The position numbers and the translations under genes are program-made. This document shows positions 267-63,160 of a DNA stretch of 64,000 nt, piece after piece. The number at the start of each line of letters is the position of its first letter. Positions within the stretch are counted from its first letter, which is position 1. The notes below the pieces were generated by a model. It was not told the DNA's origin and searched no databases. It saw nothing but the letters and a program-made list of their open reading frames with translations. The stretch lies in the NCBI RefSeq assembly GCF_028464065.1, contig NZ_CP116808.1:2311501-2375500 (forward strand), in the 5' to 3' direction. Source of the DNA: Saprospira sp. CCB-QB6 (GTDB lineage: Bacteria > Bacteroidota > Bacteroidia > Chitinophagales > Saprospiraceae).

Positions 267-414
267 GCGGCCCTAGCGGGCGAAGCCCGCTGGCCTAGCG
301 CTGTGGAGGGGGGCGGCGCAGCCGCAGACCCAGCGGGCGAAGCCCGCGCAGGGCCGAGCAGCCTTGCGAGCCCCGCAACATAGCGCCGCAAGGCGAAGCC
401 GCAGCGGAGGCCCC
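267..414 (-). repeat. GC-rich palindromic element, copy 1 (subtype I)
   Basis: On the minus strand it starts with GGGGCCTCCGCTGCGG immediately at the stop codon of the 414-3953 gene: the last C of the element border is the first base of the stop codon's complement. Core GCTCGGCCCTGCG, spacer GGTCTG, stem GCGGGCTTCGCCCGC. It ends with a second GCGGGC hairpin and the GCTAGGCC tail. Confidence 0.85.
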
Positions 415-4005: not shown

Positions 4006-4170
4006 GGGGCCTGCCGCCTGCGGCGGCCGCGCCCTTTCGTGGCTCGCAAGCCTGCTCGGCCCTGCGCGGGCTTTGCCCGCTGGGTCTGCGGCTGCGCCGC
4101 ACCACTACAGGCCGCTAGGCCAGTCGCTTCGCTCCTTTGCAGGCTCGCTGCGCTCGCCTGCGATGGCCCA
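4006..4170 (+). repeat. GC-rich palindromic element, copy 2 (subtype IV)
   Basis: Begins TTTTTTTGGGGCCTGCCGCC after a T-run. Core GCTCGGCCCTGCG, stem GCGGGCTTTGCCCGC, spacer GGTCTG, stem GCGGCTGCGCCGC, tail CGCTAGGCC and extra GCAGGC/GCCTGC hairpins. It sits in the divergent gap between 3953(-) and 4323(+). Confidence 0.85.
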
Positions 4171-4997: not shown

Positions 4998-5130
4998 AGG
5001 CGAGCGAAGCGACTTGGCCTAGGGGCCTGCAAGGGTGCCGCGCAGCGGCAGACCCAGCCAGCTTGCTGGCGCAGGGCCGAGCAGACCTGCGAGCCCTGCA
5101 AGGGCCCGGCCGCCGAAGGCGGCAGGCCCC
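4998..5130 (-). repeat. GC-rich palindromic element, copy 3 (subtype IV)
   Basis: Minus orientation; the GGGGCC border and A-run lie 38 bp before thiL. Stems GCCAGCAAGCTGGC and GCCGCTGCGCGGC; tail GGCCCCTAGGCC. It shares its left-arm type and tail with copies 2 and 4. Confidence 0.85.
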
Positions 5131-8857: not shown

Positions 8858-8992
8858 GGGGCCTGCCGCCTTCGGCGGCCGGGCCCTTGCAGGGCTCGCA
8901 GGTCTGCTCGGCCCTGCGCCAGCAAGCTGGCTGGGTCTGCCGCTGCGCGGCACCCTTGCAGGCCCCTAGGCCTGCGGCCCTTCGGGCCTGTA
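8858..8992 (+). repeat. GC-rich palindromic element, copy 4 (subtype IV)
   Basis: Border GTTTTGGGGCCTGCCGCC. Stems GCCAGCAAGCTGGC and GCCGCTGCGCGGC; tail CCCCTAGGCC followed by a GGCCCTTCGGGCC hairpin. Faces copy 5 in the same gap. Confidence 0.87.
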
Positions 8993-9180: not shown

Positions 9181-9323
9181 GCAGGCGGCGAAGCCGCCGC
9201 AGGCCTAGCGATGTGCAGGGGTGGCCCGAAGGGCCAGACCCAGCCGCCAAAGGCGGCGCAGGGCCGAGCAGGCCTGCGAGCCCCGCAACGTAGCGCCGAC
9301 GAGCGCAGCGAGGCGGAGGCCCC
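9181..9323 (-). repeat. GC-rich palindromic element, copy 5 (subtype I)
   Basis: Minus orientation, 20 bp from the promoter candidate of the metalloprotease. Left arm type GCCTCCGCCTCGCTGCG with CGTAGCGCC; stems GCCGCCTTTGGCGGC and GGCCCTTCGGGCC; tail ATCGCTAGGCC. Confidence 0.87.
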
Positions 9324-9342
9324 AAATCCTCATCACCTTAAC

Positions 9343-13376: not shown

Positions 13377-13500
13377 GTGGCCCGCGGCCAGCTTTGCTGG
13401 CCGCCGCTATGCTGCGCCGCTCGCAGGTCTGCTCGGCCCTGCGCCACCTTCGGCGGCTGGGTCTGGCCTGCGGCCACGGCTGCGCAGCGCTGGGCCGCTC
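13377..13500 (+). repeat. GC-rich palindromic element, copy 6 (subtype III)
   Basis: Border TTTTGTGGCCCGCGGCC (one base off GGGGCC), arm GGCCAGCTTTGCTGGCC then GCCGCTATGCTGCG, core GCTCGGCCCTGCG, spacer GGTCTG, stem GGCCTGCGGCC, tail CAGCGCTGGGCC. It starts directly on the terminator T-run. Confidence 0.85.
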
Positions 13501-13594: not shown

Positions 13595-13733
13595 CAGGCG
13601 GCGAAGCCGCCGCAGGCTGAGGGATGGAAAGGGGGGCGGCGAAGCCGCAGACCCAGCGGGCAACGCCCGCGCAGGGCCGAGCGACCTGCGAGCCCCGACA
13701 CAGCCCGACCCGCCCGCAGGGCGGGGCAGCCCC
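13595..13733 (-). repeat. GC-rich palindromic element, copy 7 (subtype II)
   Basis: Minus orientation, 92 bp before the methyltransferase. Arm GGGGCTGCCCCGCCCTGC... with GGGTCGGGCTGTG; stems GCGGGCGTTGCCCGC and GCGGCTTCGCCGC; tail CCATCCCTCAGCC. Confidence 0.87.
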
Positions 13734-17386: not shown

Positions 17387-17527
17387 GGGGCTGCCCCTCC
17401 CTTCGGTCGGGTCGGGCTGTTTCGCAGCTCGCTATTCGCTCGGCCCTGCGCGGCTTTCAGCCGCTTGGTCTGCCGCCTTCGGCGGCCCTGCTGTCCATCC
17501 CTCAGCCGTTCTGGCCCTACGGGCTAG
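17387..17527 (+). repeat. GC-rich palindromic element, copy 8 (subtype II)
   Basis: Border TTCTGGGGCTGCCCC, arm with CCCTTCGGTCGGGTCGGGCTG, core GCTCGGCCCTGCG, stems GCGGCTTTCAGCCGC and GCCGCCTTCGGCGGC, tail CCATCCCTCAGCC. It is antisense to both flanking minus-strand genes. Confidence 0.86.
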
Positions 17528-19810: not shown

Positions 19811-19950
19811 ACAGGCCCGAAGGGCCGCAGGCTGAGGGATGGACAGCAGTGGCCGCAGGCCAGACCGAGGCGGCTTTGCCGCCGCAGGGCCGAGCAGACC
19901 TGCGAGCCCCAAAGCGTAGCGCCGCAAGGCGAAGCCGCAGCAGAGGCCCC
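19811..19950 (-). repeat. GC-rich palindromic element, copy 9 (subtype I)
   Basis: Sense to yidC and downstream of its terminator. Arm GGGGCCTCTGCTGCGG-CTTCGCCTTGCGGCGCTACG; stems GGCGGCAAAGCCGCC and GGCCTGCGGCC; tail of the CCATCCCTCAGCC kind, then GGCCCTTCGGGCC. Confidence 0.87.
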
Positions 19951-20005
19951 AAAAGATACAGCAGTTAAGGTATCTAACTAGACGAAAAAGAGGAGGGAAA
20001 GGGAC

Positions 20006-22265: not shown

Positions 22266-22496
22266 GGGGCTGCCCCTTCCGCCGGGTTGAAACCCAGCGC
22301 AAAGCGGTATCGCTTTGCGAAGCGATGCAAAATGAGGGTTAAAACCCTCATGAGTTCTTGGGCGGGTCGGGCTGTGTCGCAGCTCGCTCTCTGCTCGGCC
22401 CTGCGGCGGCAAAGCCGCCTTGGTCTGGCCTGCGGCCACTGCTGTCCATCCCTCAGCCGCGTCGCTTCGCTCCTTTGCGGCGGCTCCGCCGCCTGT
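22266..22496 (+). repeat. GC-rich palindromic element, copy 10 (subtype II with nested module)
   Basis: The GGGGCTGCCCC arm is interrupted by about 90 bp carrying three hairpins: GGGTTGAAACCC (22284-22295), GCAAAGCGGTATCGCTTTGC (22299-22318) and ATGAGGGTTAAAACCCTCAT (22332-22351). The element then continues with GGGCGGGTCGGGCTGTG, the core GCTCGGCCCTGCG, stem GGCGGCAAAGCCGCC, and tail CCATCCCTCAGCC. Copy 22 carries nearly the same insert. Confidence 0.85.
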
Positions 22497-22562: not shown

Positions 22563-23963
22563 TTAATCCATCAACTGAATTTTGCGATAAACCTGACGAT
22601 CGCCAATTTGCAATTGTAGGTTATAGATGCCAGCAGGATAAGCAGAAAGGTCTAAGCTTTTGGTCTGCGCTCCAGCCGTTTGGCCCAAAGACAAGAACAT
22701 CAGCTCACGGCCCAACATATCTACCAAACGAAGGCTGCTGTTAGCTTGCTCTTGGCCAGGTACCTCAAAGGCTACATTAAGTAGACCTTGGCTAGGGTTG
22801 GGATATACTTTGAAGCTCGCCAAAATGAGCTCCACTTCTTCTACAGAAGTACAGTTTTGGACCACTACATATTCTGTTGTTGTAATGGTATCATAAGTGA
22901 CCAAAGTATCACGAGTTAAATTAACAGTAAGCGTAAGGTCGCCATCTGTTAGGCTAAAGATAGTTGCCGTGGTATCCGCTCCAAAATCAACTACACCACA
23001 ATCTTGAATAGAAGGGATGCTAGGGAATACTGAATCATCTTCATCTACATCAATGGTATAACGGGTTCCAGCTACCAAAGGAATATCCCGCCCAAAACTA
23101 AAAGCTAGAGGAAGTTGGCTAGAGGGAACATTAGTTGCTCCACCTCCTGTAATGGTATCAATGCCCGATTGGCTTCCTTGTACCGTTAGGAAGATTTCAG
23201 GATCTCCAAAAGCATCGTCACAACTAGCTGCTGTGATAGTAATGCCATCCAAATAAGTGAAATATTCAGCAGTGCTCACAATGGCTTCTTGAGTAATCGC
23301 ATAAGTGCCGCTATCGGCATAAGTTACGGCAACAGGATTTTCATCTGTGCTGTTTTGTCCATTGCCAAAGTCCCAGCTATAAGTAGCCGCCTGATTAAAG
23401 TTGGGGTCTACTTGAATATTATTGCTGAACGTAACCTCTAGGGGCGCACAACCCATATTGGGCGAAAGCGTAAAACCTGCTGTAGTATCAGGATCAACCA
23501 CAAAAGTAAGGGGAATATCTGCAGGCTGAGGAGGCAAGATACCCGTTTCGGCCAATACAGAAATAACAACAGTAAAGGTATCGGCTTGTAAAGGTGTACC
23601 ACAAAGAGTTACACAACCATCGCGAGTATCAGGGCTATCCTCATCATAAACAGCGGGAAGGGGACGATCAAATAAAAAGCTCATGCCCAAAGGAAGGCCA
23701 GAAACGCCTACAATCTGAAAACCAGAAAGGTTAATTCCTGAAGGAATCGTAGGATCAAGGGCCACTAAAGGGGTAGTTGTATAAGGCAAGCGGAAGCTAA
23801 TCACTTCTTCATAATAACTGTTCTGCATGGCATTGGGGATACTGTCTAAATAGACTGTATCTGCGGGCATTTGCGGGAGGTTGATGGTGCAGTTGGGGCA
23901 TTGGGCCCAGCTGTATTGGCTACAAAGGAGTAGCAAAAGCGCAAAAAGAGAAAATTGACGCAT
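22563..23963 (-). CDS. Secreted PKD-domain protein, T9SS cargo
   Basis: 466 residues. Signal peptide 1-20 (LLLLCSQYSWAQ). Residues about 60-165 are an Ig-like/putative binding region. A PKD domain lies at about 170-245 (APLEVTFSNN...YSWDFGNGQNSTDENP). A type A sorting domain forms the last 80 residues (KVYPNPSQGLLNV, LVDMLGRE, YPAGIYNLQL). No catalytic motif recognised; likely a cell-surface or secreted binding protein. Confidence 0.82.
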   Translation of the reverse strand: MRQFSLFALLLLLCSQYSWAQCPNCTINLPQMPADTVYLDSIPNAMQNSYYEEVISFRLPYTTTPLVALDPTIPSGINLSGFQIVGVSGLPLGMSFLFDRPLPAVYDEDSPDTRDGCVTLCGTPLQADTFTVVISVLAETGILPPQPADIPLTFVVDPDTTAGFTLSPNMGCAPLEVTFSNNIQVDPNFNQAATYSWDFGNGQNSTDENPVAVTYADSGTYAITQEAIVSTAEYFTYLDGITITAASCDDAFGDPEIFLTVQGSQSGIDTITGGGATNVPSSQLPLAFSFGRDIPLVAGTRYTIDVDEDDSVFPSIPSIQDCGVVDFGADTTATIFSLTDGDLTLTVNLTRDTLVTYDTITTTEYVVVQNCTSVEEVELILASFKVYPNPSQGLLNVAFEVPGQEQANSSLRLVDMLGRELMFLSLGQTAGAQTKSLDLSAYPAGIYNLQLQIGDRQVYRKIQLMD

Positions 23964-24015
23964 AAGTATAATTGTTTAATTTGATTAGCAAAATGTATGA
24001 GCCAGGGGGGGAATC

Positions 24016-24269
24016 GGCCTAGCGATGTGCAGCAGTGGCCGTAGGCCAGACCGAGCCAGCTTTGCTGGCGCAGGGCCGAGCGAATAGCGAGCTGCGGAAC
24101 GTAGCGCCGCAAGGCGAAGCCGCAGCGGAGGCCCCAAAACAACAGCGAGCTGCGACAACAAGCCCTTTAGGGCGCAGTTCGACGACCGAAGGGAGTAAAC
24201 GTAGCGCCTGCCGCAGGCAGACAACAAGGCTACAAGCCGCAGTTCGACGACTATAAGGAGTAACGCCCC
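24016..24269 (-). repeat. GC-rich palindromic element, copy 11 (subtype I, extended)
   Basis: Core element plus a 5' extension built of GTCGTCGAACTGC and TTACTCC units, hairpin GCCCTAAAGGGC and GCAGCTCGCTGTTG. The extended part is the inverted equivalent of copy 12 at 28449-28662, with a perfect run of more than 100 bp. Stem GCCAGCAAAGCTGGC; tail ATCGCTAGGCC. Confidence 0.87.
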
Positions 24270-24324
24270 AAAAAAAAAGACTATTAAAGAAGCTAATAGG
24301 CTAGCATTCTCAAATAGTCTTTTA
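24270..24324 (-). terminator. Probable terminator of the 24351 gene
   Basis: AGACTATT / AATAGTCT arms with an internal stem region between, followed on the minus strand by nine T. The T-run leads straight into the GGGGC border of copy 11. Confidence 0.6.
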
Positions 24325-24350
24325 TGATTTATTGTAGGAACAGCGGCGGA

Positions 24351-25373
24351 TTAACGCAAGATTACTTTCTGTGTGCTAGACGCGCTGCCGTTGTTGATTT
24401 CGATCAGGTAGATACCTGCAGAAAACTGAGCAGTAGGCAATTGGAATTGCTGTTGGCCCATTTGTGCGCCTAGGTTTTGGCTGTGTAGACGTTGGCCCAA
24501 GCTGTTGTAGATATTGACTTGTAGATCCTGCTCTTCCTTAAGATCGAGGAACAATTGTACGTCGCCAGCAGCAGGATTAGGGAATACACTAAAGGCGTTG
24601 AGGCCATCGATATGTGTAGTCGCCACAGTAGAAGCCGTGCGGTAGTAGTGAACTTGAGAAGGATTCAGGCCATAGCAGATAAGTAGGTTGTCTGTAAGGT
24701 CGCCACATTCAAAACCATTTACTCTACTTGAAAAGCCATTTACAAGATCCATATAAGATACCAAGCTAGCAGCAGAAAGCTGTGCATCGGTAAAGGCATC
24801 AAAAACAGTCAATACATCAGCTAGGGTATTGACATCATTTATAGAAGTAATGCCTAGATTACTAAGTGTATCACAAAAACCTCTAGTTTCACTATAAAGA
24901 TTAAATAGACCACAACATGGACTTCCACTTCCTGCGATTATTCCATTTAAAATAGAGTCTAATAAAACACGTACTTGTCCCATATCATATCCAATAGCAA
25001 CCATCCCAAAAGTATCGCCAGGAGCAACCGTTACGCCATAGCGGCCAAGAGTTGCGGGATCTAAGATACCATCGGCATCGGCGCCAATAATAACATCTCC
25101 GCCTCCATTAGTTGTATCACAAGCGGTACGAGCGCTATCTAAAGCACAGGTTCCCTTTTTAACGATGAGGTATTCTACATTGGCAAAGCCCACAGCTTGT
25201 ACACTTAGAGGAGGCGCAGGCGTCCAAATTGTACCGCCCACCTCATAGCTATTGGTACCAGTTTGTACTTCAGGGGCTGTTTTATTATTACAAGCAGTTG
25301 TTGCTTGAGCAAAAAGTTGTTGGCCAACAAAAAGCGATAAGGCCAAGAAAAGAGTTAGTTGTAGTCCTTTCAT
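24351..25373 (-). CDS. Secreted protein with T9SS sorting domain
   Basis: 340 residues. Signal peptide 1-22. The body is cysteine-containing and rich in Asp/Thr/Asn with no family that I recognise. Residues about 262-340 are a T9SS type A sorting domain (FSVFPNPAAGDVQLFL, IYNSLGQRLHSQ, FSAGIYLIEINNG). It is divergent from the TonB receptor gene and shares the 380-bp regulatory gap with it. Confidence 0.8.
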   Translation of the reverse strand: MKGLQLTLFLALSLFVGQQLFAQATTACNNKTAPEVQTGTNSYEVGGTIWTPAPPLSVQAVGFANVEYLIVKKGTCALDSARTACDTTNGGGDVIIGADADGILDPATLGRYGVTVAPGDTFGMVAIGYDMGQVRVLLDSILNGIIAGSGSPCCGLFNLYSETRGFCDTLSNLGITSINDVNTLADVLTVFDAFTDAQLSAASLVSYMDLVNGFSSRVNGFECGDLTDNLLICYGLNPSQVHYYRTASTVATTHIDGLNAFSVFPNPAAGDVQLFLDLKEEQDLQVNIYNSLGQRLHSQNLGAQMGQQQFQLPTAQFSAGIYLIEINNGSASSTQKVILR

Positions 25374-25426
25374 TAGATGAAATTTAATAGGTTCATAATT
25401 ATGTTAGTGTCGAGCTACTAGGCGTA

Positions 25427-25434
25427 CAAAGTTA
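25427..25434 (-). promoter_or_regulatory. Candidate -7 element for the 24351-25373 gene
   Basis: TAACTTTG on the minus strand. Leader would be about 47 nt. TTTG words occur upstream but closer than the usual 19 bp. Confidence 0.45.
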
Positions 25435-25691
25435 AAGATTATCGGCAAACAAAATCTTTTTATTTAGTTTTTTTAGGCTTGTAGATAGACCAAGCTAGGG
25501 AAAATGAGGCTAAAAGGGCTGTTTGAATAGAAATAAGCAGCAGGAATGCACTATAAATTTGCTGTAGCTAGCCTTAAGTTGGCTTTTACCTATTTTTGTT
25601 TGGCAGACTAATCTATGGCCAAAATAAATAAGAGGAGATGCCCGCAATGGAAGAAAATTATACATCTACCTAGAAATTAGTTTATTTGCCT

Positions 25692-25699
25692 TAAATTTG
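25692..25699 (+). promoter_or_regulatory. Candidate -7 element for the TonB receptor
   Basis: TAAATTTG, a perfect TAnnTTTG. Transcription from about 25706 would place the TTG at 25708 at the transcript end and supports the ATG at 25753. Confidence 0.45.
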
Positions 25700-25752
25700 T
25701 CGGCATTTTGCTAAATGCAGAACATCCAAAATATACTTTAAAACTTGATGAA

Positions 25753-28389
25753 ATGAAAAACTTTAACGTATTGGGCCTTTGCCTGCTATTCAGTTTACTG
25801 ACTAGCTGGACCTATGGGCAAAAAGCCACGGTTAAGGGCGTTGTTACTGATGCTAACTCTAAAGAGCCTCTACCCGCTACGCTCCGAATCCTTGACACAG
25901 AGGGCAAATTGATTACTGGCGCCGGGGCCGATGTGCTTTCTGGAGAATATATGATCTCTGTAGATGCTGGAACCTATAAAATGACAGTCTCTTATATTGG
26001 TCTAGCCGATCAGTCTTTTGATCTAGAGTTGGCCGCAGGAGAAACCAAAGAGATCAACGTAGAAATGAAAGAGGAAGATAACCTCCTCAAAACAGTTACT
26101 GTAACTGGCTCTAAGGCCGGAACCCAACTGGCCAAGAATACCGTCTCTATTGATGTGGTGAAACCCACCCTAGTCGATAATACCAATGCTACTAAAGTAG
26201 ATGAGGTAGTCGATAAAGTACCTGGAGTAACTGTTGTAGACGGCCAAGCCAATATCCGCGGTGGATCAGGTTATTCTTATGGTGCCGGTAGCCGAGTGCT
26301 TATCCTCGTAGATGACCTCCCCTTTATGTCTGCCGATGCCGGCTTTGCCAACTGGAGAGATATCCCCGTAGAAAATATTGAGCAAATTGAGGTCCTCAAA
26401 GGGGCCGCCTCGGCCCTCTACGGCTCTTCTGCCCTAAACGGAATTATCAATATCCGCACGGCCTACGCTAAGTCTAAACCCCTAACTAAGTTCTCGCTCT
26501 TCCAAACTTCTTTTGCCCAACCTAGTAGCAGAACAATGCCCTCTTTTCGTAATCCCAATACAACAACTGAAGTGTCTGGTCAAGCTTGGTGGGCACAAGA
26601 CTCTATCTCTGCGAACCTTACAGATGATGGGGGAGCTACTTATTATGATACTACTTTTACCCCCCAATGGCTAGCTGGCCCCCGTGGCTATCGCAAACCT
26701 ATCGAGTTTGGCGCCTCTTTGGCCCACCGCCGCAAAATTGGTAAACTCGACCTGACCCTAGGGGCCAACGGTTTCTATAAAGATTCTTACCTAGCCGGAG
26801 AGTATGAACGCAAACTCAGAGCAAACGCGAATGTCCGCTACCGCTTTACCGATAGCTTAAATGTTGGTGCCAATGTGAACGTAAACTTCGGAAACTCTTC
26901 TTCTTTCTTCCTCTGGAATAACAATGCTTTTCTAGGAACGGGTAGTATTTCTGATAGCTCAACCCACTTCACCTACCCTGGTTCTGTTACCGAATCAGTT
27001 ACCTCTCGGATCAATGTGGACCCCTACCTCACATACTTTGACCGCCTCGGTAACCGCCACCGCCTACAAACTCGTATCTATTATATTAGCAACGAGAATG
27101 GCAATAACCAAAGTAATAGCTCTACGCTCTACTATGGCGAATACCAATATCAAAGAACCTTCAAAAAACTACAAAACCTCAAAATGGTGGCTGGCCTCGT
27201 GGGCCAATATTCTGCTGCCCAATCTCAACTTTATGGAGATGCCGAATACGATATCTCTAACTATGCCGCCTATGTCCAACTCGATAAAGGCTTCCTTACC
27301 GATGAGTTTGGCGATAGTAAACTCAATTTCTCTTTTGGTGCCCGTATCGAACGAAACGCCATTACAAGCCCAGACTCTATCCAGGTTTCGGTCTCTCAAC
27401 CCAAAATCAAAAATCCCGAACCTAGTTCTGTGGAAGCTAAACCCGTTTTCCGCGCTGGGGTAAATTACGAACTTACGCCCTTTACTTTCCTTCGCGCCTC
27501 TTGGGGACAAGGTTACCGCTATCCCACTATCGCCGAACGCTATATCACTACTTTCGTAGGGGACCCCAATGGTACAGGCCTAGAAATCCGCGCCAACCCA
27601 GAACTAGAATCTGAAACAGGCTGGTCTGCCGAACTCGGTATCAAACAAGGCTTCATGATCACTTCTAACTGGAAGGGCTTTGTCGATGTCTCTTTCTTCT
27701 GGACCCAATACCAGAATATGATGGAGTTCTCTTTCGGTGGCGGAGATACTGCCGCTATCAATCAAATTACCTTGGAAGGCGTGGAAAATGGTTCTACCCC
27801 CATCTTCTTCCAATCAGCCAATATCGGAAATACCAATATCCGCGGTGCAGAATTTAGCGTAATGGGTACCGGTAAAATCGCTGGCGTAGATATGAACCTA
27901 CTCGCTGGCTATACTTACCTAGATCCCCGCTTCCAAGATTTTGACGAACGCCAAAAACTCCTTAGCTCTAACGATACAACCAATATCCTTAAGTATCGCG
28001 CCCGCCATACTGTTAAGTTCGATGCCGAAGCCTTTTTCCTCAAAGAAAATAACCTCTCTGTCGGACTCTCTGTTAACGCTAGCAGTAGTATGCTCGCTAT
28101 TGATAAGGTATTTCAAGATCTCGTTTTCTCGGATAATGATCTGCCTTTAGGACCAGCAGATGCTTTCGGTATCGGCCGCTACCGCCAACACGTTAATAGT
28201 GGCGAATATGTGAACCTCAGCGCCCGCGTTGGCTACCGCCACGCTTTCAAAAATGCTGAAGGCGAAGAAAAATGGGGCGCTAAGATCTCAGTCGTAGGCA
28301 AAAACTTGCTCAACCAAGAGTATACTTTGCGCCCCGCTCTAGTAGCCGCCCCCGCTAATGTTACCGTACGCCTAGATTTCGATTTCTAG
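25753..28389 (+). CDS. TonB-dependent outer-membrane receptor
   Basis: 878 residues from ATG 25753. Signal peptide 1-21, then a carboxypeptidase-regulatory-like beta domain (about 22-110, GVVTDANSKEPLPATLRI), then the plug (about 130-250; IRGGSGYSYGAGSRVLILVDD, IEQIEVLKGAASALYGSSAL) and a 22-strand barrel ending in aromatic VRLDFDF. It imports a ligand bound at the surface using TonB energy. No SusD partner is next to it, so the substrate is open; siderophore, metal or small organic compounds are possible. A strong terminator follows. Confidence 0.92.
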   Translation: MKNFNVLGLCLLFSLLTSWTYGQKATVKGVVTDANSKEPLPATLRILDTEGKLITGAGADVLSGEYMISVDAGTYKMTVSYIGLADQSFDLELAAGETKEINVEMKEEDNLLKTVTVTGSKAGTQLAKNTVSIDVVKPTLVDNTNATKVDEVVDKVPGVTVVDGQANIRGGSGYSYGAGSRVLILVDDLPFMSADAGFANWRDIPVENIEQIEVLKGAASALYGSSALNGIINIRTAYAKSKPLTKFSLFQTSFAQPSSRTMPSFRNPNTTTEVSGQAWWAQDSISANLTDDGGATYYDTTFTPQWLAGPRGYRKPIEFGASLAHRRKIGKLDLTLGANGFYKDSYLAGEYERKLRANANVRYRFTDSLNVGANVNVNFGNSSSFFLWNNNAFLGTGSISDSSTHFTYPGSVTESVTSRINVDPYLTYFDRLGNRHRLQTRIYYISNENGNNQSNSSTLYYGEYQYQRTFKKLQNLKMVAGLVGQYSAAQSQLYGDAEYDISNYAAYVQLDKGFLTDEFGDSKLNFSFGARIERNAITSPDSIQVSVSQPKIKNPEPSSVEAKPVFRAGVNYELTPFTFLRASWGQGYRYPTIAERYITTFVGDPNGTGLEIRANPELESETGWSAELGIKQGFMITSNWKGFVDVSFFWTQYQNMMEFSFGGGDTAAINQITLEGVENGSTPIFFQSANIGNTNIRGAEFSVMGTGKIAGVDMNLLAGYTYLDPRFQDFDERQKLLSSNDTTNILKYRARHTVKFDAEAFFLKENNLSVGLSVNASSSMLAIDKVFQDLVFSDNDLPLGPADAFGIGRYRQHVNSGEYVNLSARVGYRHAFKNAEGEEKWGAKISVVGKNLLNQEYTLRPALVAAPANVTVRLDFDF

Positions 28390-28410
28390 TCTCCTCCTAC
28401 TAATTTTTTA

Positions 28411-28448
28411 TAGCCTCTATTCTGCCTAAGAATAGGGGCTATTTTTTG
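28411..28448 (+). terminator. Intrinsic terminator of the TonB receptor gene
   Basis: 14-bp stem ATAGCCTCTATTCT / AGAATAGGGGCTAT with two wobble positions, 4-nt loop and six T. Confidence 0.88.
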
Positions 28449-28662
28449 CCCCCCCCCCCGCCTTCGGCGGGCGCTACGTTTACTCCCTTCGGTCGTCGAA
28501 CTGCGCCCTAAAGGGCTTGTTGTCGCAGCTCGCTGTTGTTTTGGGGCCTCCGCTGCGGCTTCGCCTTGCGGCGCTACGTTTCGCAGCTCGCTATTCGCTC
28601 GGCCCTGCGGCAGCAAAGCTGCCTGGGTCTGGCCTGCGGCCACTGCTGCACATCGCTAGGCC
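28449..28662 (+). repeat. GC-rich palindromic element, copy 12 (subtype I, extended)
   Basis: Starts with a run of about 13 C and CCGCCTTCGGCGG, then the same extension as copy 11 in opposite orientation, then the core from GGGGCC at 28543. Stem GGCAGCAAAGCTGCC; tail ATCGCTAGGCC. Confidence 0.87.
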
Positions 28663-28856
28663 AAGAATGATATTGCTCCGCAATGTTTTTATGGAATGCG
28701 GCTTAAAACCCATATTGATTTAAATCTTTTGGCTTTTTATCTATTTCATCTTAGTTAGTTGATCCTCCTCTAGTTATGGGCTGAAGGTTTTAACCTTCGG
28801 CCCATTTTATTAGGTCTAGTATGACCTCCCTTCTTGCTGTGGGTTGAAACCCACAG
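28663..28856. repeat. Hairpin module plus 130-bp dispersed repeat
   Basis: 28667-28712 is a worn copy of the three-hairpin module (ATATTGCTCCGCAAT). 28726-28856 is a direct repeat of 58741-58872: a CTTTTGGC..TTTTATCTAT start, then stem GGGCTGAAGGTT / AACCTTCGGCCC, and CTGTGGGTTGAAACCCACAG at the end. No gene. Confidence 0.75.
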
Positions 28857-28907
28857 GGCTATATAATAGCGTGATTTCGGAGCCAAACCCCAAACAATTC
28901 AAAGGGA

Positions 28908-28942
28908 AAGCTATTCGGGATTTGTAAAATGGCATTTGTAAA
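28908..28942. repeat. 35-bp dispersed repeat (inverted partner at 9065-9099)
   Basis: From AAGCTATTCGGG to GGCATTTGTAAA, an exact reverse complement of 9065-9099. Confidence 0.8.
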
Positions 28943-29017
28943 GTATAGCAAGCTATTTGAGACTGTTCAGGATTTTGTGTATTAGAATAAAATTTGGGCC
29001 TTTAGCTTGTTTAATTT

Positions 29018-29095
29018 TATGAGGGTTTCAACCCTCATTTATATATTATTGCGAAGCAATACCATTTTTGCTGTAGGTTTTAACCTACAGACATG
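29018..29095. repeat. Three-hairpin module, free-standing
   Basis: Hairpins ATGAGGGTTTCAACCCTCAT, TTGCGAAGCAA and CTGTAGGTTTTAACCTACAG in the order seen, inverted, in copy 10's insert. It lies directly before copy 13. Confidence 0.75.
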
Positions 29096-29116
29096 GTAAG
29101 TCCCTTTTATGCGTGT

Positions 29117-29260
29117 AGAGGCGGCAAAGCCGCCGGCTGAGGGGCTGTAGCAGGGCCGCCGCAGGCGGCAGACCCAGCGGGCGCAGCCCGCGCAGGGCCG
29201 AGCAGAGCTGCGAGCTGCGCAATGGCCCGACCCAAGGCCGCAGGCCGCAGGGGCAGCCCC
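29117..29260 (-). repeat. GC-rich palindromic element, copy 13 (subtype II-like)
   Basis: Sense to the dioxygenase-like gene and after its terminator. Border TTTTGGGGCTGCCCC; stems GCGGGCTGCGCCCGC and GCCGCCTGCGGCGGC; tail CCCCTCAGCCGGCGGCTTTGCCGCC. Confidence 0.85.
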
Positions 29261-29265
29261 AAAAC

Positions 29266-29303
29266 AAAAAAAAAGGAGCTGGCCTCCACAACCAACTCCT
29301 TGC
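29266..29303 (-). terminator. Probable terminator of the 29330 gene
   Basis: AAGGAGTT / AGCTCCTT arms (one mismatch) with about 13-nt loop, followed on the minus strand by nine T. Confidence 0.5.
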
Positions 29304-29329
29304 TTCCAAAAATAAACAAACAAAGAAGA

Positions 29330-30346
29330 TTAACCCTTGATAAATAGCTTTTGCTGTCTGAAGGTCCCGCTAATATTTTGGACCACTAATTCAAAAGCAT
29401 ATTGTCCAGCAGGCAGTTGGCTACAGTCGTAGGCCAGTTGTTGCAAGCCAGCAGAAAGATCAGATTTAATAATTTGTCCCAGTTGTTGCCCCGAAATACT
29501 CACAATATTGAGCTGTACATTGGCAGTTTGTAGGAGTTGAAAGCTGAAGAATACTTGATCTTTGGCGGGATTGGGAAAAGCCTTGAGCTGGCTAAATTGT
29601 CCGCCTGTTTCTAAGCTATGTTCTTCTACCCCCAAAACGCCAAGGCTGATACCAATGGTTTTGCTGGCGGTATAGCCGTTGGTCGTATCGCCGCTAACGG
29701 TCATTAGTTCATCGGTATAAGAGTCGCTAAAAACCATATCATTACTATTCGTAAAGCTGTTGGTTCCGCTAGTGGCATAATAGCTATCAACAGTACTATT
29801 GATGCTATCGGGAAAGGCCAATTGGCTAGTTAATAGCAGGTTATTGGAGCTATCAAAAACTTGGATATGAATATGGGTGGCCCGAGGGGTATACCAGCCG
29901 GGGTAGATGCTTGTAAAATTTACGGTACCATTGCTGTCGGTATATTGTATTCCTCTGAGCCAGGTAGTTCCAGCATTATTTACTGTTCCATCAATGCCAG
30001 GTTGGCCATCATAGGCGGAATAGTAGCCCCTTTTATTGCAATGCCAAACATCTACTCTTAGGCCAGCTACTGCTAGGCAGTTATTATCAATATTTTGAAT
30101 CGTAATGCTAAAATTAAGGGGAATCCCCGTTTGGGTTCCCTCAGTAATATCAGAACGCAGCAAAGTAGAGCTAGTAATAGAAGAGGGGGCGGGGTAGGGG
30201 CCTGCGGTTTCTGCGGGCAAGGGGTCGCAGCTCATATTTTCCAAAACCTCTTGGTTGCTTGGTTCATCCATAACATCTTTGAATCCCAAAAAGGGGATTG
30301 CTACAGCGCCTAGTCCGATGCGCTTTAAAAAGTCTATTCTTTTCAT
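29330..30346 (-). CDS. Secreted intradiol ring-cleavage dioxygenase-like protein, T9SS cargo
   Basis: 338 residues. The start KRIDFLKRIGLGAVAIPFLGF is a signal-type N-terminus; a Tat-like RR is not present. Residues about 40-215 match the catechol/protocatechuate intradiol dioxygenase fold: ETAGPYPAP, VDVWHCNKRGYYSAYDG, YPGWYTPRATHIHIQV. The two Tyr and two His positions (GYYS, GWYTPRATHIH) fit the non-haem Fe(III) ligands. A T9SS type A sorting domain occupies the last 80 residues (KAFPNPAKDQVFFSF, LPAGQYAFEL). An extracellular aromatic-ring cleaving enzyme is inferred. Monocistronic. Confidence 0.85.
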   Translation of the reverse strand: MKRIDFLKRIGLGAVAIPFLGFKDVMDEPSNQEVLENMSCDPLPAETAGPYPAPSSITSSTLLRSDITEGTQTGIPLNFSITIQNIDNNCLAVAGLRVDVWHCNKRGYYSAYDGQPGIDGTVNNAGTTWLRGIQYTDSNGTVNFTSIYPGWYTPRATHIHIQVFDSSNNLLLTSQLAFPDSINSTVDSYYATSGTNSFTNSNDMVFSDSYTDELMTVSGDTTNGYTASKTIGISLGVLGVEEHSLETGGQFSQLKAFPNPAKDQVFFSFQLLQTANVQLNIVSISGQQLGQIIKSDLSAGLQQLAYDCSQLPAGQYAFELVVQNISGTFRQQKLFIKG

Positions 30347-32452: not shown

Positions 32453-32600
32453 CCTAGGGCCGAAGGGCCAAATGGCCCAGCGCTGCGCAGCCGTGGCCCG
32501 CAGGGCCAGACCAAAGCCCGCAGGGCTGCAGGGCCGAGCAGGCTTGCGAGCGGCGCAGCATAGCGGCGGCCGCCCCAGAAAAAGGGCGGCCGCGGGCCCC
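32453..32600 (-). repeat. GC-rich palindromic element, copy 14 (subtype III)
   Basis: Minus orientation, 33 bp before hutI. Arm GGGGCCCGCGGCCGCCC with the matching GGGCGGCCGCCGC arm, then CTATGCTGCGCCGCTCGC; stems AGCCCTGCGGGCT and GGCCCTGCGGGCC; tail CAGCGCTGGGCC. Confidence 0.86.
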
Positions 32601-36090: not shown

Positions 36091-36233
36091 GGGGGCCCGC
36101 GGCCAGCAAGCTGGCCGCCGCTATGCTGCGCCGCTCGCAGTTCGCTCGGCCCTGCAGCCGCCTTTGGCGGCTTTGGTCTGGCCTGCGGCCACGGCTGCGC
36201 AGCGCTGGGCCTGCTGGGCTTCGCCGCCTGTAG
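36091..36233 (+). repeat. GC-rich palindromic element, copy 15 (subtype III)
   Basis: Border TGGGGGCCCGCGGCC, arm GGCCAGCAAGCTGGCC then GCCGCTATGCTGCG; stems GCCGCCTTTGGCGGC and GGCCTGCGGCC; tail CAGCGCTGGGCC plus a GGGCTTCGCC stretch. It starts 6 bp after a stop codon. Confidence 0.87.
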
Positions 36234-37540: not shown

Positions 37541-37654
37541 GGCCTAGCGATGCGGCGGGGGGGCCGTCAGGCCAGACCGAGCCAGCTTGCTGGCGAAGGG
37601 CCGAGCAGACCTGCGAGCCCCAAAGCGTAGCGCCTGCCGCAGGCAGGAGGCCCC
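37541..37654 (-). repeat. GC-rich palindromic element, copy 16 (subtype I)
   Basis: The smallest copy. Arm GGCCTCCTGCCTGCGGCAGGCGCTACG; stems GCCAGCAAGCTGGC and GGCCTGACGGCC; tail ATCGCTAGGCC. Its GGGGCC edge is 15 bp before the ferredoxin start. Confidence 0.85.
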
Positions 37655-41840: not shown

Positions 41841-41845
41841 TTTTT

Positions 41846-42008
41846 GGGGCCTCCGCCTCGCTACGCTCGTCGGCGCTACGCTTTGGGGCTCGCAGGTCTG
41901 CTCGGCCCTGCGGCCTGACGGCCTTGGTCTGCGGCTTCGCCGCCCCCTTTCGCATCGCTAGGCCGCTCAACGGCTATGTTTTGGCCGGGCCTCCCGCTTC
42001 GGCCGCCG
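41846..42008 (+). repeat. GC-rich palindromic element, copy 17 (subtype I)
   Basis: TTTTTGGGGCCTCCGCC begins right after the TAG stop codon. Arm GCTACGCTCGTCGGCGCTACGC; stems GGCCTGACGGCC and GCGGCTTCGCCGCC; tail ATCGCTAGGCC. A second partial element (GGCCGGGCCTCCCGCTTCGGCC) follows. Confidence 0.87.
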
Positions 42009-42420: not shown

Positions 42421-42555
42421 GAGGCGGCGCAGCCGCCGGCTGAGGGATGGACAGCAGTGGCCGTCAGGCCAGACCAAGGCGCTGCAAGCGCCGCAGGGCC
42501 GAGCGAATAGCGAGCTGCGAAACAGCCCGACCCGCCCGTAGGGCGGGGCAGCCCC
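42421..42555 (-). repeat. GC-rich palindromic element, copy 18 (subtype II)
   Basis: Arm GGGGCTGCCCCGCCCTACGGGCGGGTCGGGCTG, stems GGCGCTTGCAGCGCC and GGCCTGACGGCC, tail CCATCCCTCAGCC then GGCGGCTGCGCCGCC. 46 bp before the subtilase. Confidence 0.87.
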
Positions 42556-47331: not shown

Positions 47332-47337
47332 CCAACA

Positions 47338-48168
47338 CTAGAAATTTGGACTCGCCTTAACAATGCGATCATTAACAGGCTGCTCATTCCGATAATTATG
47401 AACAGGCATATTCTCTTCTAAAATTTTGGCCTGTTTCAAGGAGATATTGATCGGCGTTTTGAAGATATACCACTGTACATTTTCTGAACAAGGAGGAGTA
47501 GTTAAAGACCCTTTGTAGTGATAGTAGCTTCTATCCTTGGGCAAGTTTAAATTCATATCAAAAGGCTTCCCAATCTCTTTTTTCGCACCAGCGGCCAAAG
47601 GCAAATAAGTCTCTAAAAAATCAAAGGGAGCACTTTGTCCACCTTCTTTGGCCATGACCGCTAAAACAGCAATATCTCCATCTTGGTTAGCGTGTACCAA
47701 ATGCATTTCTAAGGGGTAGCGAACGCCCTCTATGGTGTGCTCAGAAGGCTCGTGAAAATGAAACTGCTTGAGATAAAACTTTTCGCCCTCCAAAACAATA
47801 TAATCGCCTTCCTCAAAATCATATTGAATGGAATGGCCATTGTTAACCACATCATGCAAAATGGTTTGGTCCGCATACTGAATATCTAAAGGCGGAAGCT
47901 GCTCGTCGCTTTGGTACTCCACAATGTTAATTGGAGACTGATGCTGGCCCCCACAATCCGAAGTTTTTTCAAGCTCGGCCCAATGCTCAGGCCCCGTTTC
48001 TCCCTGATAACTCCAGTCTTCATGCTGTCTGGCTGGCGCAGATTCCAACTTAACAGGGCTTTTTTCTACACTATTCGGATGATGCTCGTTAATGTGTACT
48101 TCCTTAGACGCACAGGCATTTAAGCCTAGCCCCATAACAATTAGGGCTAAGTAGGTTAGCGTTTTCAT
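47338..48168 (-). CDS. Alpha-class carbonic anhydrase, probable lipoprotein
   Basis: 276 residues. Lipobox LNAC puts Cys at about residue 19. Zn ligands QFHFHEPSEH (two His) and EMHLVHAN (third His), with GGQHQSPINI and GSLTTPPCSE typical of the alpha class. Converts CO2 and bicarbonate in the periplasm or at the outer membrane. The spacer from residue 22 to about 50 is charged and His-containing. Monocistronic. Confidence 0.93.
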   Translation of the reverse strand: MKTLTYLALIVMGLGLNACASKEVHINEHHPNSVEKSPVKLESAPARQHEDWSYQGETGPEHWAELEKTSDCGGQHQSPINIVEYQSDEQLPPLDIQYADQTILHDVVNNGHSIQYDFEEGDYIVLEGEKFYLKQFHFHEPSEHTIEGVRYPLEMHLVHANQDGDIAVLAVMAKEGGQSAPFDFLETYLPLAAGAKKEIGKPFDMNLNLPKDRSYYHYKGSLTTPPCSENVQWYIFKTPINISLKQAKILEENMPVHNYRNEQPVNDRIVKASPNF

Positions 48169-49716: not shown

Positions 49717-49848
49717 GGGGCCTCCCGCCTTTGGCGGGCGCTACGCTTTGGGGCTCGCTATTCGCTCGGCCCTTCGCCAGCTTTGCTGGCTCGGTCTGGC
49801 CTTCGGCCACCCCGCCGCATCGCTAGGCCTGCGGGCCTGACGGCCCTG
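49717..49848 (+). repeat. GC-rich palindromic element, copy 19 (subtype I)
   Basis: Border TTTTGGGGCCTCCCGCC, arm GCCTTTGGCGGGCGCTACGC, core GCTCGGCCCTTCG, stems GCCAGCTTTGCTGGC and GGCCTTCGGCC, tail ATCGCTAGGCC then GGCCTGACGGCC. In a divergent gap. Confidence 0.87.
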
Positions 49849-50506: not shown

Positions 50507-50665
50507 TACAGGCGGCGAAGCCGCCGCAAAGGCGCGAAGCGCCGCGGCTGAGGGATGTGAAAGGGTGGCCGCAGGCCAGACCGAGCTAGCGAAGCTGGCG
50601 AAGGGCCGAGCAGAGCTGCGAGCCCTGAAACGTAGCGCCGACGAGCGTAGCGAGGCGGAGGCCCC
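50507..50665 (-). repeat. GC-rich palindromic element, copy 20 (subtype I)
   Basis: Arm GGCCTCCGCCTCGCTACGCTCGTCGGCGCTACG as in copy 17; stem GCCAGCTTCGCTAGC (one mismatch), GGCCTGCGGCC; tail CACATCCCTCAGCC with two more hairpins (GGCGCTTCGCGCC, GGCGGCTTCGCCGCC). Confidence 0.87.
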
Positions 50666-50674
50666 AAAAACAAC

Positions 50675-54531: not shown

Positions 54532-54672
54532 GGGGCTGCCCCGCCCTGCGGGCGGGTCGGGCTGTGTCAGGGCTCGCAGCTCTGCTCGGCCCTTCGCCAG
54601 CTTCGCAGCTCGGTCTGGCCTGCGGCCACCCTTTTCCATCCCTCAGCCGATGCGGGCGCTCCGCGCCCTGTA
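54532..54672 (+). repeat. GC-rich palindromic element, copy 21 (subtype II)
   Basis: GTTTTGGGGCTGCCCCGCCC directly after the uvrA stop. Arm GCCCTGCGGGCGGGTCGGGCTGTG, stems GCCAGCTTCGCAGC (imperfect) and GGCCTGCGGCC, tail CCATCCCTCAGCC then GGGCGCTCCGCGCCC. It precedes the terminator and so is likely transcribed in the uvrA 3' UTR. Confidence 0.87.
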
Positions 54673-55218: not shown

Positions 55219-55457
55219 AGGCGGCGCAGCCGCCGCAAAGGAGCGAAGCGACGCGGCTGAGGGATGGTAGTAGGTGGCCGCAGGCCAGACCCAGCAAAAT
55301 GAGCCTAGCGAATTTTGCGCAGGGCCGAGCGAGCAGCGAGCCTACGCACAGCCCGACCCGCCCGATCATTCATGAGGGTTTTCACCCTCATTTTGTATAG
55401 CTTCGCAAAGCGATACCGCTTTGCGCTGGCTTTCAAGCCCGCGGAAGGGGCAGCCCC
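55219..55457 (-). repeat. GC-rich palindromic element, copy 22 (subtype II with nested module)
   Basis: The GGGGCTGCCCC arm is split by about 95 bp with the same three hairpins as copy 10: GGGCTTGAAAGCC, GCAAAGCGGTATCGCTTTGC and ATGAGGGTGAAAACCCTCAT. Central stem is unusually long: GCAAAATTCGCTAGGC..TTTTGC arms. Tail CCATCCCTCAGCC. It starts 11 bp after the marR stop. Confidence 0.86.
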
Positions 55458-58519: not shown

Positions 58520-58652
58520 GGGGCCCGCGGCAAGCTAGCCAAAGGCTAGCTTGGCCGCCGCTATGCTGCGGGGCTCACAGGTCTGTTCGGCCCTTCAGCC
58601 GCCTGCGGCGGCTTCGGTCTGGCCTTCGGCCACCCCTCCGCAGCGCTGGGCC
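58520..58652 (+). repeat. GC-rich palindromic element, copy 23 (subtype III)
   Basis: Border TATTTGGGGCCCGCGGC, arm CAAGCTAGCC-AAAGGCTAGCTTG then GCCGCCGCTATGCTGCG; core slightly changed (GTTCGGCCCTTC); stems GCCGCCTGCGGCGGC and GGCCTTCGGCC; tail CAGCGCTGGGCC. Confidence 0.86.
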
Positions 58653-59796: not shown

Positions 59797-59946
59797 GGGC
59801 GCGAAGCGCCCGCGGCTGAGGGATGGACAGCAGGGCCGCCGCAGGCGGCAGACCTAGCAAAAAAGCGCGGAGCGCTTTTTTGCGCAGGGCCGAGCGAATA
59901 GCGAGCTGCGAAACAGCCCGACCCGCCCGCAGGGCGGGGCAGCCCC
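59797..59946 (-). repeat. GC-rich palindromic element, copy 24 (subtype II)
   Basis: Arm GGGGCTGCCCCGCCCTGC with GGGCGGGTCGGGCTG; central stem expanded to GCAAAAAAGCGC / GCGCTTTTTTGC; second stem GCCGCCTGCGGCGGC; tail CCATCCCTCAGCC and GGGCGCTTCGCGCCC. 30 bp before the FtsX-like gene. Confidence 0.87.
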
Positions 59947-63023: not shown

Positions 63024-63160
63024 TGGGGCCCGCGGCCGGCTAGGCTTTGCCTAGCTCGGCCGCCGCTATGCTCTGGGGCTCGCAGGTCTGCTCGGCCCTG
63101 CGTCGCCTGCGGCTCCTTGGTCTGGCGCTATGCGCCACCCCTCCGCAGCGCTGAGCCGAG
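63024..63160 (+). repeat. GC-rich palindromic element, copy 25 (subtype III)
   Basis: ATTTGGGGCCCGCGGCCGG starts 8 bp after a stop codon. Arm CTAGGCTTTGCCTAG then CGGCCGCCGCTATGCT, core GCTCGGCCCTGCG, imperfect stem GTCGCCTGCGGCTCC, stem GGCGCTATGCGCC, tail CAGCGCTGAGCC. Confidence 0.86.

Follow-up and report, generated by a model that had tools for sequence, protein, structure and literature searches.

The cargo/receptor locus and its inverted arms

In the marine predatory bacterium Saprospira sp. CCB-QB6 (chromosome of 4,185,531 bp), two divergently transcribed genes, one for a T9SS cargo protein and one for a TonB-dependent receptor, lie between the arms of a long inverted repeat, within the window analysed here (the whole stretch of 64,000 nucleotides, to which positions refer unless stated otherwise). 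Each arm contains a core element, one end of which, GGGGCC, is designated o, and the other, CTAGGCC or CTCAGCC, is designated i; in a '-+' interval the o ends of two neighbouring copies face each other, and in a '+-' interval the i ends do. The features of the locus are as follows:

22563..23963, minus strand: left neighbour, PKD / T9SS cargo protein, within a '+-' interval (22362, plus, to 24017, minus)
24016..24218, minus strand: left arm, core element 24017-24136 and extension, o end (GGGGCC) toward the gene block
24351..25373, minus strand: T9SS cargo protein with a C-terminal sorting domain (Por_Secre_tail, PF18962)
25374..25707, no strand: divergent promoter region, 334 bp by gene coordinates, within the repeat-bounded block
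25708..28389, plus strand: TonB-dependent receptor (PF00593, PF07715, CarboxypepD_reg)
28460..28662, plus strand: right arm, extension and core element 28542-28661, o end toward the gene block
29330..30346, minus strand: right neighbour, dioxygenase-like T9SS cargo

The arms (24016-24218 and 28460-28662) measure 203 nt each, are 96.6% identical, are separated by 4241 bp and share a longest perfect run of 111 bp, in agreement with the initial annotation, which had described copies 11 (minus) and 12 (plus) as sharing an extra extension with more than 100 bp of perfect inverted identity, about 4.3 kb apart, on either side of a divergent T9SS-cargo/TonB-receptor pair, both genes of which we confirm. 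By our count the window has 25 copies, and these two are the 11th and 12th. When the whole genome is searched with the left arm, the best non-self match is the right arm (97%), the next best reaching 90%. Chance is excluded as the source of the identity, since random pairs of copies from the same 800 kb have a median exact run of 15 bp and a maximum of 81 (n=2916 pairs); by exact run, the pair ranks second highest among 119 '-+' neighbours. For the cargo gene and the receptor gene alike, the terminator is followed by an element, and an extra extension distinguishes both arms from their orthologues in three sister genomes. Inserts of a modular type (TTACTCCCTTCGGTCGTCGAACTGCG...hairpin...GCTTGTTGTCGC) are seen at 24160-24263 and 28480-28530; they occur in or beside copies, at varying positions and with a variable inner hairpin, and look like nested elements. 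Rfam returned no match up to E = 1 within 23900-29500, and single-sequence folding of both arms was no better than that of shuffles.

For comparison we have the genomes of DSM 2844, Lewin and S. grandis WHT (chromosome of 4,250,550 bp; PMC10508125), and G004 as an outgroup, which, like G003, comes from the same genus listing, is a fragmented assembly and has no match to the repeat. One order is common to CCB-QB6, DSM 2844, Lewin and WHT: PKD/T9SS gene (minus), element, cargo gene (minus), receptor (plus), element, methyltransferase gene (plus), with the orientation of the cargo/receptor locus identical in all four. The dioxygenase-like gene (29330-30346) is at that place in CCB-QB6 and WHT, and is missing there in Lewin and DSM 2844. 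In G004, the PKD gene (22563-23963 in the window) adjoins the cargo gene, and these two and the receptor gene are found in the same order and on the same strands without the elements, which are absent at both sites, the sequence being too diverged to reveal target-site duplications. Within one genome, the arms are about 72-75% identical in Lewin and WHT versus 96.6% in CCB-QB6, and only 40 bp can be aligned in DSM 2844, whose right copy bears its own insertions of a related module; the arm extension of CCB-QB6 is not present at the left site in the other genomes. As the sisters possess both copies, but not such identity, we infer, with good support, that the near-identity of the arms arose in this lineage via local recombination between inverted copies, which would have been either gene conversion or repeated flips without net change.

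An array of folded elements on alternating strands

A first look with the left arm produced 1274 candidates genome-wide, with matches at dozens of places, and an iterated profile of the 120-bp core recognizes 403-406 copies in 1.2 Mb of the CCB-QB6 genome (2.0-2.8 and 3.1-3.5 Mb), amounting, by extrapolation, to about 1,400 copies per genome, or one per about 3 kb. The statistics given below cover this 1.2 Mb and 0.4 Mb each of two sisters (WHT and Lewin). Besides the two arms, the window contains the following core elements:

293..414, minus strand
4024..4120, plus strand
5017..5113, minus strand
8875..8971, plus strand
9203..9324, minus strand
13390..13495, plus strand
13616..13718, minus strand
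17387..17506, plus strand
19831..19951, minus strand
22362..22457, plus strand, preceding the pair
29146..29237, minus strand, following the pair
32475..32584, minus strand, one of the rare same-strand neighbours
36108..36210, plus strand
37542..37638, minus strand
41845..41963, plus strand
42439..42554, minus strand
49732..49828, plus strand
50547..50666, minus strand
54544..54647, plus strand
55256..55361, minus strand
58545..58651, plus strand
59815..59945, minus strand
63054..63156, plus strand

Intergenic regions of at least 150 bp, classified by our simple ORF calls, are occupied in 186 of 249 codirectional, 77 of 87 convergent and 58 of 98 divergent cases. A plasmid-sized second contig has an element at 47336-47460, with an inverted neighbour about 1.3 kb off. 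Short palindromes around GGTTTTAACC, GGTTGAAACC and GGTTTCAACC make up another family, seen at 28780-29110 of the window and in the segments of the genome, which is over-represented in '+-' intervals and lies mainly on the elements' inner side; as markers of '+-' intervals, these palindromes are too few to define them. No description of Saprospira repeats was found in the open literature searched, the genome papers of Lewin and DSM 2844 being outside this search, and a prior description is possible.

The fold of the element is backed by covariation, not by energy. Six helices, long-range ones included, are recognized over 119 model positions (134 copies in 400 kb), with 98.5% of the cells paired, 529 double-sided compensatory cells versus 168 in shuffles and only 7 cells with one-sided changes, counts that come from an alignment fitted to the model and thus favouring the fold; the original MAFFT alignment has compensatory changes in 13 of 21 pairs, again with the long-range helices included. 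The covariation score is 0.494 versus 0.129 in shuffles, and it collapses when partners are slid by one column. One G-U/G-T pair is invariant (133 of 133 copies), which makes the two strands unequal. G-U intermediates are usually tolerated in RNA helices, and the near-pure Watson-Crick covariation of the element is thus read as selection or copying acting at the DNA level. The copies fall into two subtypes, in which o and i end types go together (a with T and b with S, all common combinations); whether the very ends pair was judged by eye. GTAG-like tetramers are present in some subtypes, and are not invariant in alignment A1.

The copies are arranged with alternating strand. Over the 1.2 Mb of CCB-QB6, 357 of 402 neighbouring copies (89%) are on opposite strands (p ~1e-61 versus independence), leaving about 11% that do not alternate; the counts are 114 of 125 in WHT and 112 of 129 in Lewin (226 of 254 together), and 23 of 24 in the window alone. 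Ambiguous palindromes do not account for the alternation, the opposite-strand scores of the copies being zero; neither does the profile, as copies located by the bare 10-mer GCTCGGCCCT also alternate (225 of 260 in an 800-kb segment, with further counts of 98 of 117, 104 of 121 and 102 of 121); nor do close pairs, as the alternation persists when '+-' pairs closer than 500 bp are removed (177 of 202, 78 of 92, 92 of 99 and 88 of 101). The orientation of the element is independent of the strand of the flanking genes: in the gene contexts ++, --, +- and -+, there are 67, 58, 45 and 34 plus copies and 64, 55, 47 and 33 minus copies. The inverted pair at the cargo/receptor locus is, then, two neighbours in an array of structured elements of about 120 bp with alternating strand, an instance of a genome-wide arrangement that the initial annotation had missed.

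The two kinds of interval differ. The '-+' gene blocks span 2-6 kb, with a median of 3.7 kb and centred on 3-4 kb, and '+-' intervals span 0-3.5 kb, the detailed range being 50 bp to about 3.5 kb; gaps below 1.5 kb make up 1 of 180 '-+' cases, and gaps below 400 bp make up 50 of 181 '+-' cases. A single intergenic region holds both copies in 67 '+-' cases and in no '-+' case. For a given number of genes the '-+' interval is the longer (one gene: 2864 bp versus 1336 bp for '+-'), the quartiles of single-copy '-+' intervals are 3.0-4.0 kb (Lewin) and 3.1-4.1 kb (WHT), and the nearest copies on the same strand are seldom less than about 3 kb apart. The genes differ as well, those of '-+' blocks having a GC3 of 0.464 versus 0.437 (p = 8e-7) and a slightly higher conservation (94% versus 91.5% identity), and those of '+-' intervals being shorter. 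The locus at 24016-28662 is one such '-...+' block, with o ends facing in, of a type that typically extends over about 3.7 kb. A model of random parking of fixed-length blocks, with the block set to the observed mean, gives i-i quartiles of 262, 921 and 1966 bp versus the observed 276, 1143 and 2254 bp, and a coverage of 76% versus the observed 73%, so that the gaps may, as a suggestion, be accounted for by non-overlapping placement at a fixed length. Only this simple continuous version fits, and roughly; a parking model on the real intergenic sites over-packs.

The array is conserved between species. In sequence aligned at about 87% nucleotide identity, a copy of the same orientation is found at the syntenic place for 112 of 119 CCB-QB6 copies in WHT and for 109 of 119 in Lewin. 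With a covariance model trained on 38 copies, full-length relatives are recognized in two other genera of the family, represented by G018 (146 of 150 candidates scored) and G014 (48), and none in G006 or G013. Among the matches listed for G018, 15 of 19 same-contig neighbours within about 12.6 kb alternate, by a hand count, which is a hint only of alternation beyond Saprospira.

Recombination and rival accounts of alternation

As to exchange between copies, neighbours that are inverted relative to each other are more alike in CCB-QB6 than expected. For '-+' neighbours, the median exact run is 21 versus 15 in random pairs (p = 8e-14), and '+-' neighbours also exceed random pairs (p = 2e-4); a second segment of the genome gives p = 2e-6 ('-+') and p = 7e-4 ('+-'). 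The excess is absent in same-strand neighbours and next-but-one copies of this genome, and it is also absent in WHT and Lewin, where neighbouring copies typically share about 16 bp exactly. At a matched distance of 2-6 kb, inverted pairs exceed direct pairs (p = 1e-7), with runs of at least 60 bp in 11 of 289 versus 0 of 248. The simplest reading would be gene conversion between inverted copies in this lineage, and the contrast between inverted and direct pairs could be sharpened by deletion of those direct pairs that had long identity. In CCB-QB6, facing pairs that are close together and share a subtype are under-represented (6 of 33 versus 51% expected, p = 2e-4), and there is no shortage of them in the sisters (12 of 22), as would be seen if active exchange went with a loss of long palindromes. 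Two same-strand neighbours of the Lewin segment (positions 379820 and 381088), 1.2 kb apart, share 167 bp exactly, and are probably a recent direct duplication.

Over about 400 kb of alignment, CCB-QB6 differs from both sisters by four inversions. One, of 29 kb, has inverted copies at both ends in CCB-QB6 and in the sisters, with the alternation kept; another, of 10.9 kb, has copies at both ends in the sisters, CCB-QB6 now having fewer copies there; the remaining two have no clean repeat boundaries. Homologous recombination keeps the o or i side of each unique segment end, and an alternating array thus stays alternating after an inversion. By this reasoning, recombination that preserves sides explains the persistence of the alternation, not its origin.

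One possible origin is selection against deletion between direct neighbours, leaving inverted neighbours as the survivors, acting as the sole cause and with no positive function of the element. Direct neighbours without long identity, and the rarity of same-strand spacings under about 3 kb, are in line with such selection; however, it predicts that '-+' and '+-' intervals should be similar, and '-+' intervals are almost never short while '+-' intervals often are. Moreover, the 16 bp or so shared exactly by neighbours in WHT and Lewin is too little for frequent deletion. The asymmetry of o and i argues against this selection as the sole cause, and we consider it unlikely.

Another proposal would make the '+...-' intervals mobile units with terminal inverted repeats and an optional cargo gene, in which case alternation would be automatic and trivial. 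The shorter, lower-GC3 and slightly less conserved genes of the '+-' intervals, and the covariation of the two element ends as types, agree with this proposal, but the genes in question are mostly present in the sister segments (51 of 58 and 52 of 58), the three testable neighbour pairs, each parted by one copy, all remain adjacent in G004, which lacks the repeat, and a search of the Y1 family identified no associated transposase. With the genes mostly conserved, and native where testable (three cases only), we have rejected '+-' intervals as cargo transposons, and mobile units of this kind are quite improbable.

The initial annotation had proposed that the arrangement can invert by recombination, thus swapping gene orientation relative to the shared flanks. 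For the repeat family this is plausible, as inverted copies bound two of the four inversions seen over about 400 kb and as inverted neighbours in this genome bear signs of exchange; at the locus it is unsupported, a single orientation being seen in four genomes. Extended to an invertible, phase-variable locus, in which recombination between the arms flips the cargo/receptor block and switches its expression or places it in a new context, the proposal could also call on the 111 bp of perfect inverted identity. Against it are the order and orientation, shared by the four Saprospira genomes and, over the part covered, by G004; conserved order in relatives is one of the two observations that the initial annotation had named as refuting inversion. 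The arms are diverged in the other genomes, and hundreds of such arrangements exist. The block contains the two genes together with the promoter region between them, and a flip would not disconnect the promoters or act as an on/off switch. Homologous recombination could invert this block, though no trace of such an event is seen, and it would switch neither gene; a phase-variable locus is very unlikely. Lastly, the notion that elements stand in a fixed orientation at the 3' ends of transcription units, with divergent genes thus producing an inverted pair, is true at 24016-28662, where elements follow both terminators, and can be practically dismissed as a general rule, as element strand is independent of gene strand genome-wide and the gene end opposite o is a 3' end in 212 cases and a 5' end in 189.

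Proposed paired polar boundaries and known systems

Overall, the explanation that we regard as probable, with moderate confidence, combines an alternating array of structured elements, recombination between arms, and paired polar boundaries delimiting gene blocks. Tentatively, the elements would act on DNA as such boundaries, in supercoiling, looping or another strand-specific DNA transaction, with each block closed by two oppositely oriented, inward-facing elements and with no overlap between blocks; closure of this kind, together with non-overlapping blocks, would result in alternation. The boundary reading is favoured because a preferred length is seen for the o-o block, the i-i interval resembling space left over. 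Evidence against it comes from the 11% or so of neighbours on the same strand, from the over-packing of the parking model on real intergenic sites, and from the element subtypes, which are unmatched at the two block ends in WHT and Lewin; matched subtypes at both block ends had no clear effect. Special outward terminators at the o end were also considered and rejected (35% versus 37% in controls at 3' ends, 6% versus 6% at 5' ends), and the T-run before GGGGCC is part of the element, whichever gene end it faces. A more far-reaching version, in which the chromosome would be split, near saturation, into non-overlapping blocks of about 3.7 kb by inward-facing, folded, strand-specific elements, as an orientation-coded compartment system in the manner of convergent loop anchors, and upheld by selection and partly by gene conversion of the anchors, is possible, and we hold it as rather doubtful.

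Repeats scattered over bacterial genomes are usually taken to be oriented independently of one another. In this array, the strand of a copy can be predicted from its neighbour at about 89%, independently of genes, and this is conserved between species; whatever imposes the strand order acts over kilobases. If a physical compartment system is in place, Saprospira would present a genetically readable, orientation-coded architecture of a bacterial chromosome, and if the order is a by-product of recombination or paired insertion, the array would document that process with unusual clarity. In either case the inverted pair exemplifies a rule and is not to be taken for a local switch.

Among the closest known systems are REP/BIME, high-copy, GC-rich, extragenic palindromic repeats that form inverted doublets and alternate in orientation inside clusters (PMC2817692). 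Like these, the Saprospira element is high-copy (>100 per genome), GC-rich, intergenic, palindromic and alternating, and it forms inverted doublets. REP carry a GTAG (or CGTC) tag at one end, and on inspection of alignment A1 a GTAG tag did not look obligatory in the Saprospira element. Unlike REP, a single hairpin of 20-40 bp, it has a multi-branched fold of 120 bp, and unlike BIME clusters, its alternation spans kilobases across genes, with conserved spacing. No REP-associated tyrosine transposase (RAYT) is above the cut-off in the genome (27-35 bits with the RAYT model versus a cut-off of 80); the three Y1 proteins present are all above the cut-off as IS200 type, and 0-1 copies of the element are found within 3.3 kb around each of their genes. 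These IS200-type genes are single and diverged (chromosome positions 2876875, 3623619 and 3945007). Membership in RAYT/REP thus fails on size, fold and an associated RAYT.

MITEs and the Correia, BOX and ERIC elements are small, non-autonomous, dispersed, intergenic and modular, with paired ends. The Saprospira element is likewise dispersed, intergenic and modular, with ends that may be paired, but, unlike MITEs, it nearly saturates the intergenic regions, keeps position and strand between species and has a non-independent strand order. The attC site of integrons is a recombination site folded from a single strand, with a conserved shape and with features by which the strands become unequal. 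By analogy only, the Saprospira element resembles it in its conserved shape, its freely varying stems of near-strict Watson-Crick pairing and its strands, unequal through the invariant G-U/G-T pair; it differs in that no integrase or cassette array was identified and in that the copies alternate and are not unidirectional. In CTCF-like layouts of convergent loop anchors, inward-facing sites close intervals of a preferred size and stand back-to-back at boundaries. The Saprospira elements, bacterial, at a scale of about 3.7 kb and known here from sequence alone, are unlike these in such respects, and are like them, again by analogy only, in their preferred-size intervals, their inward-facing sites and their back-to-back sites at boundaries.
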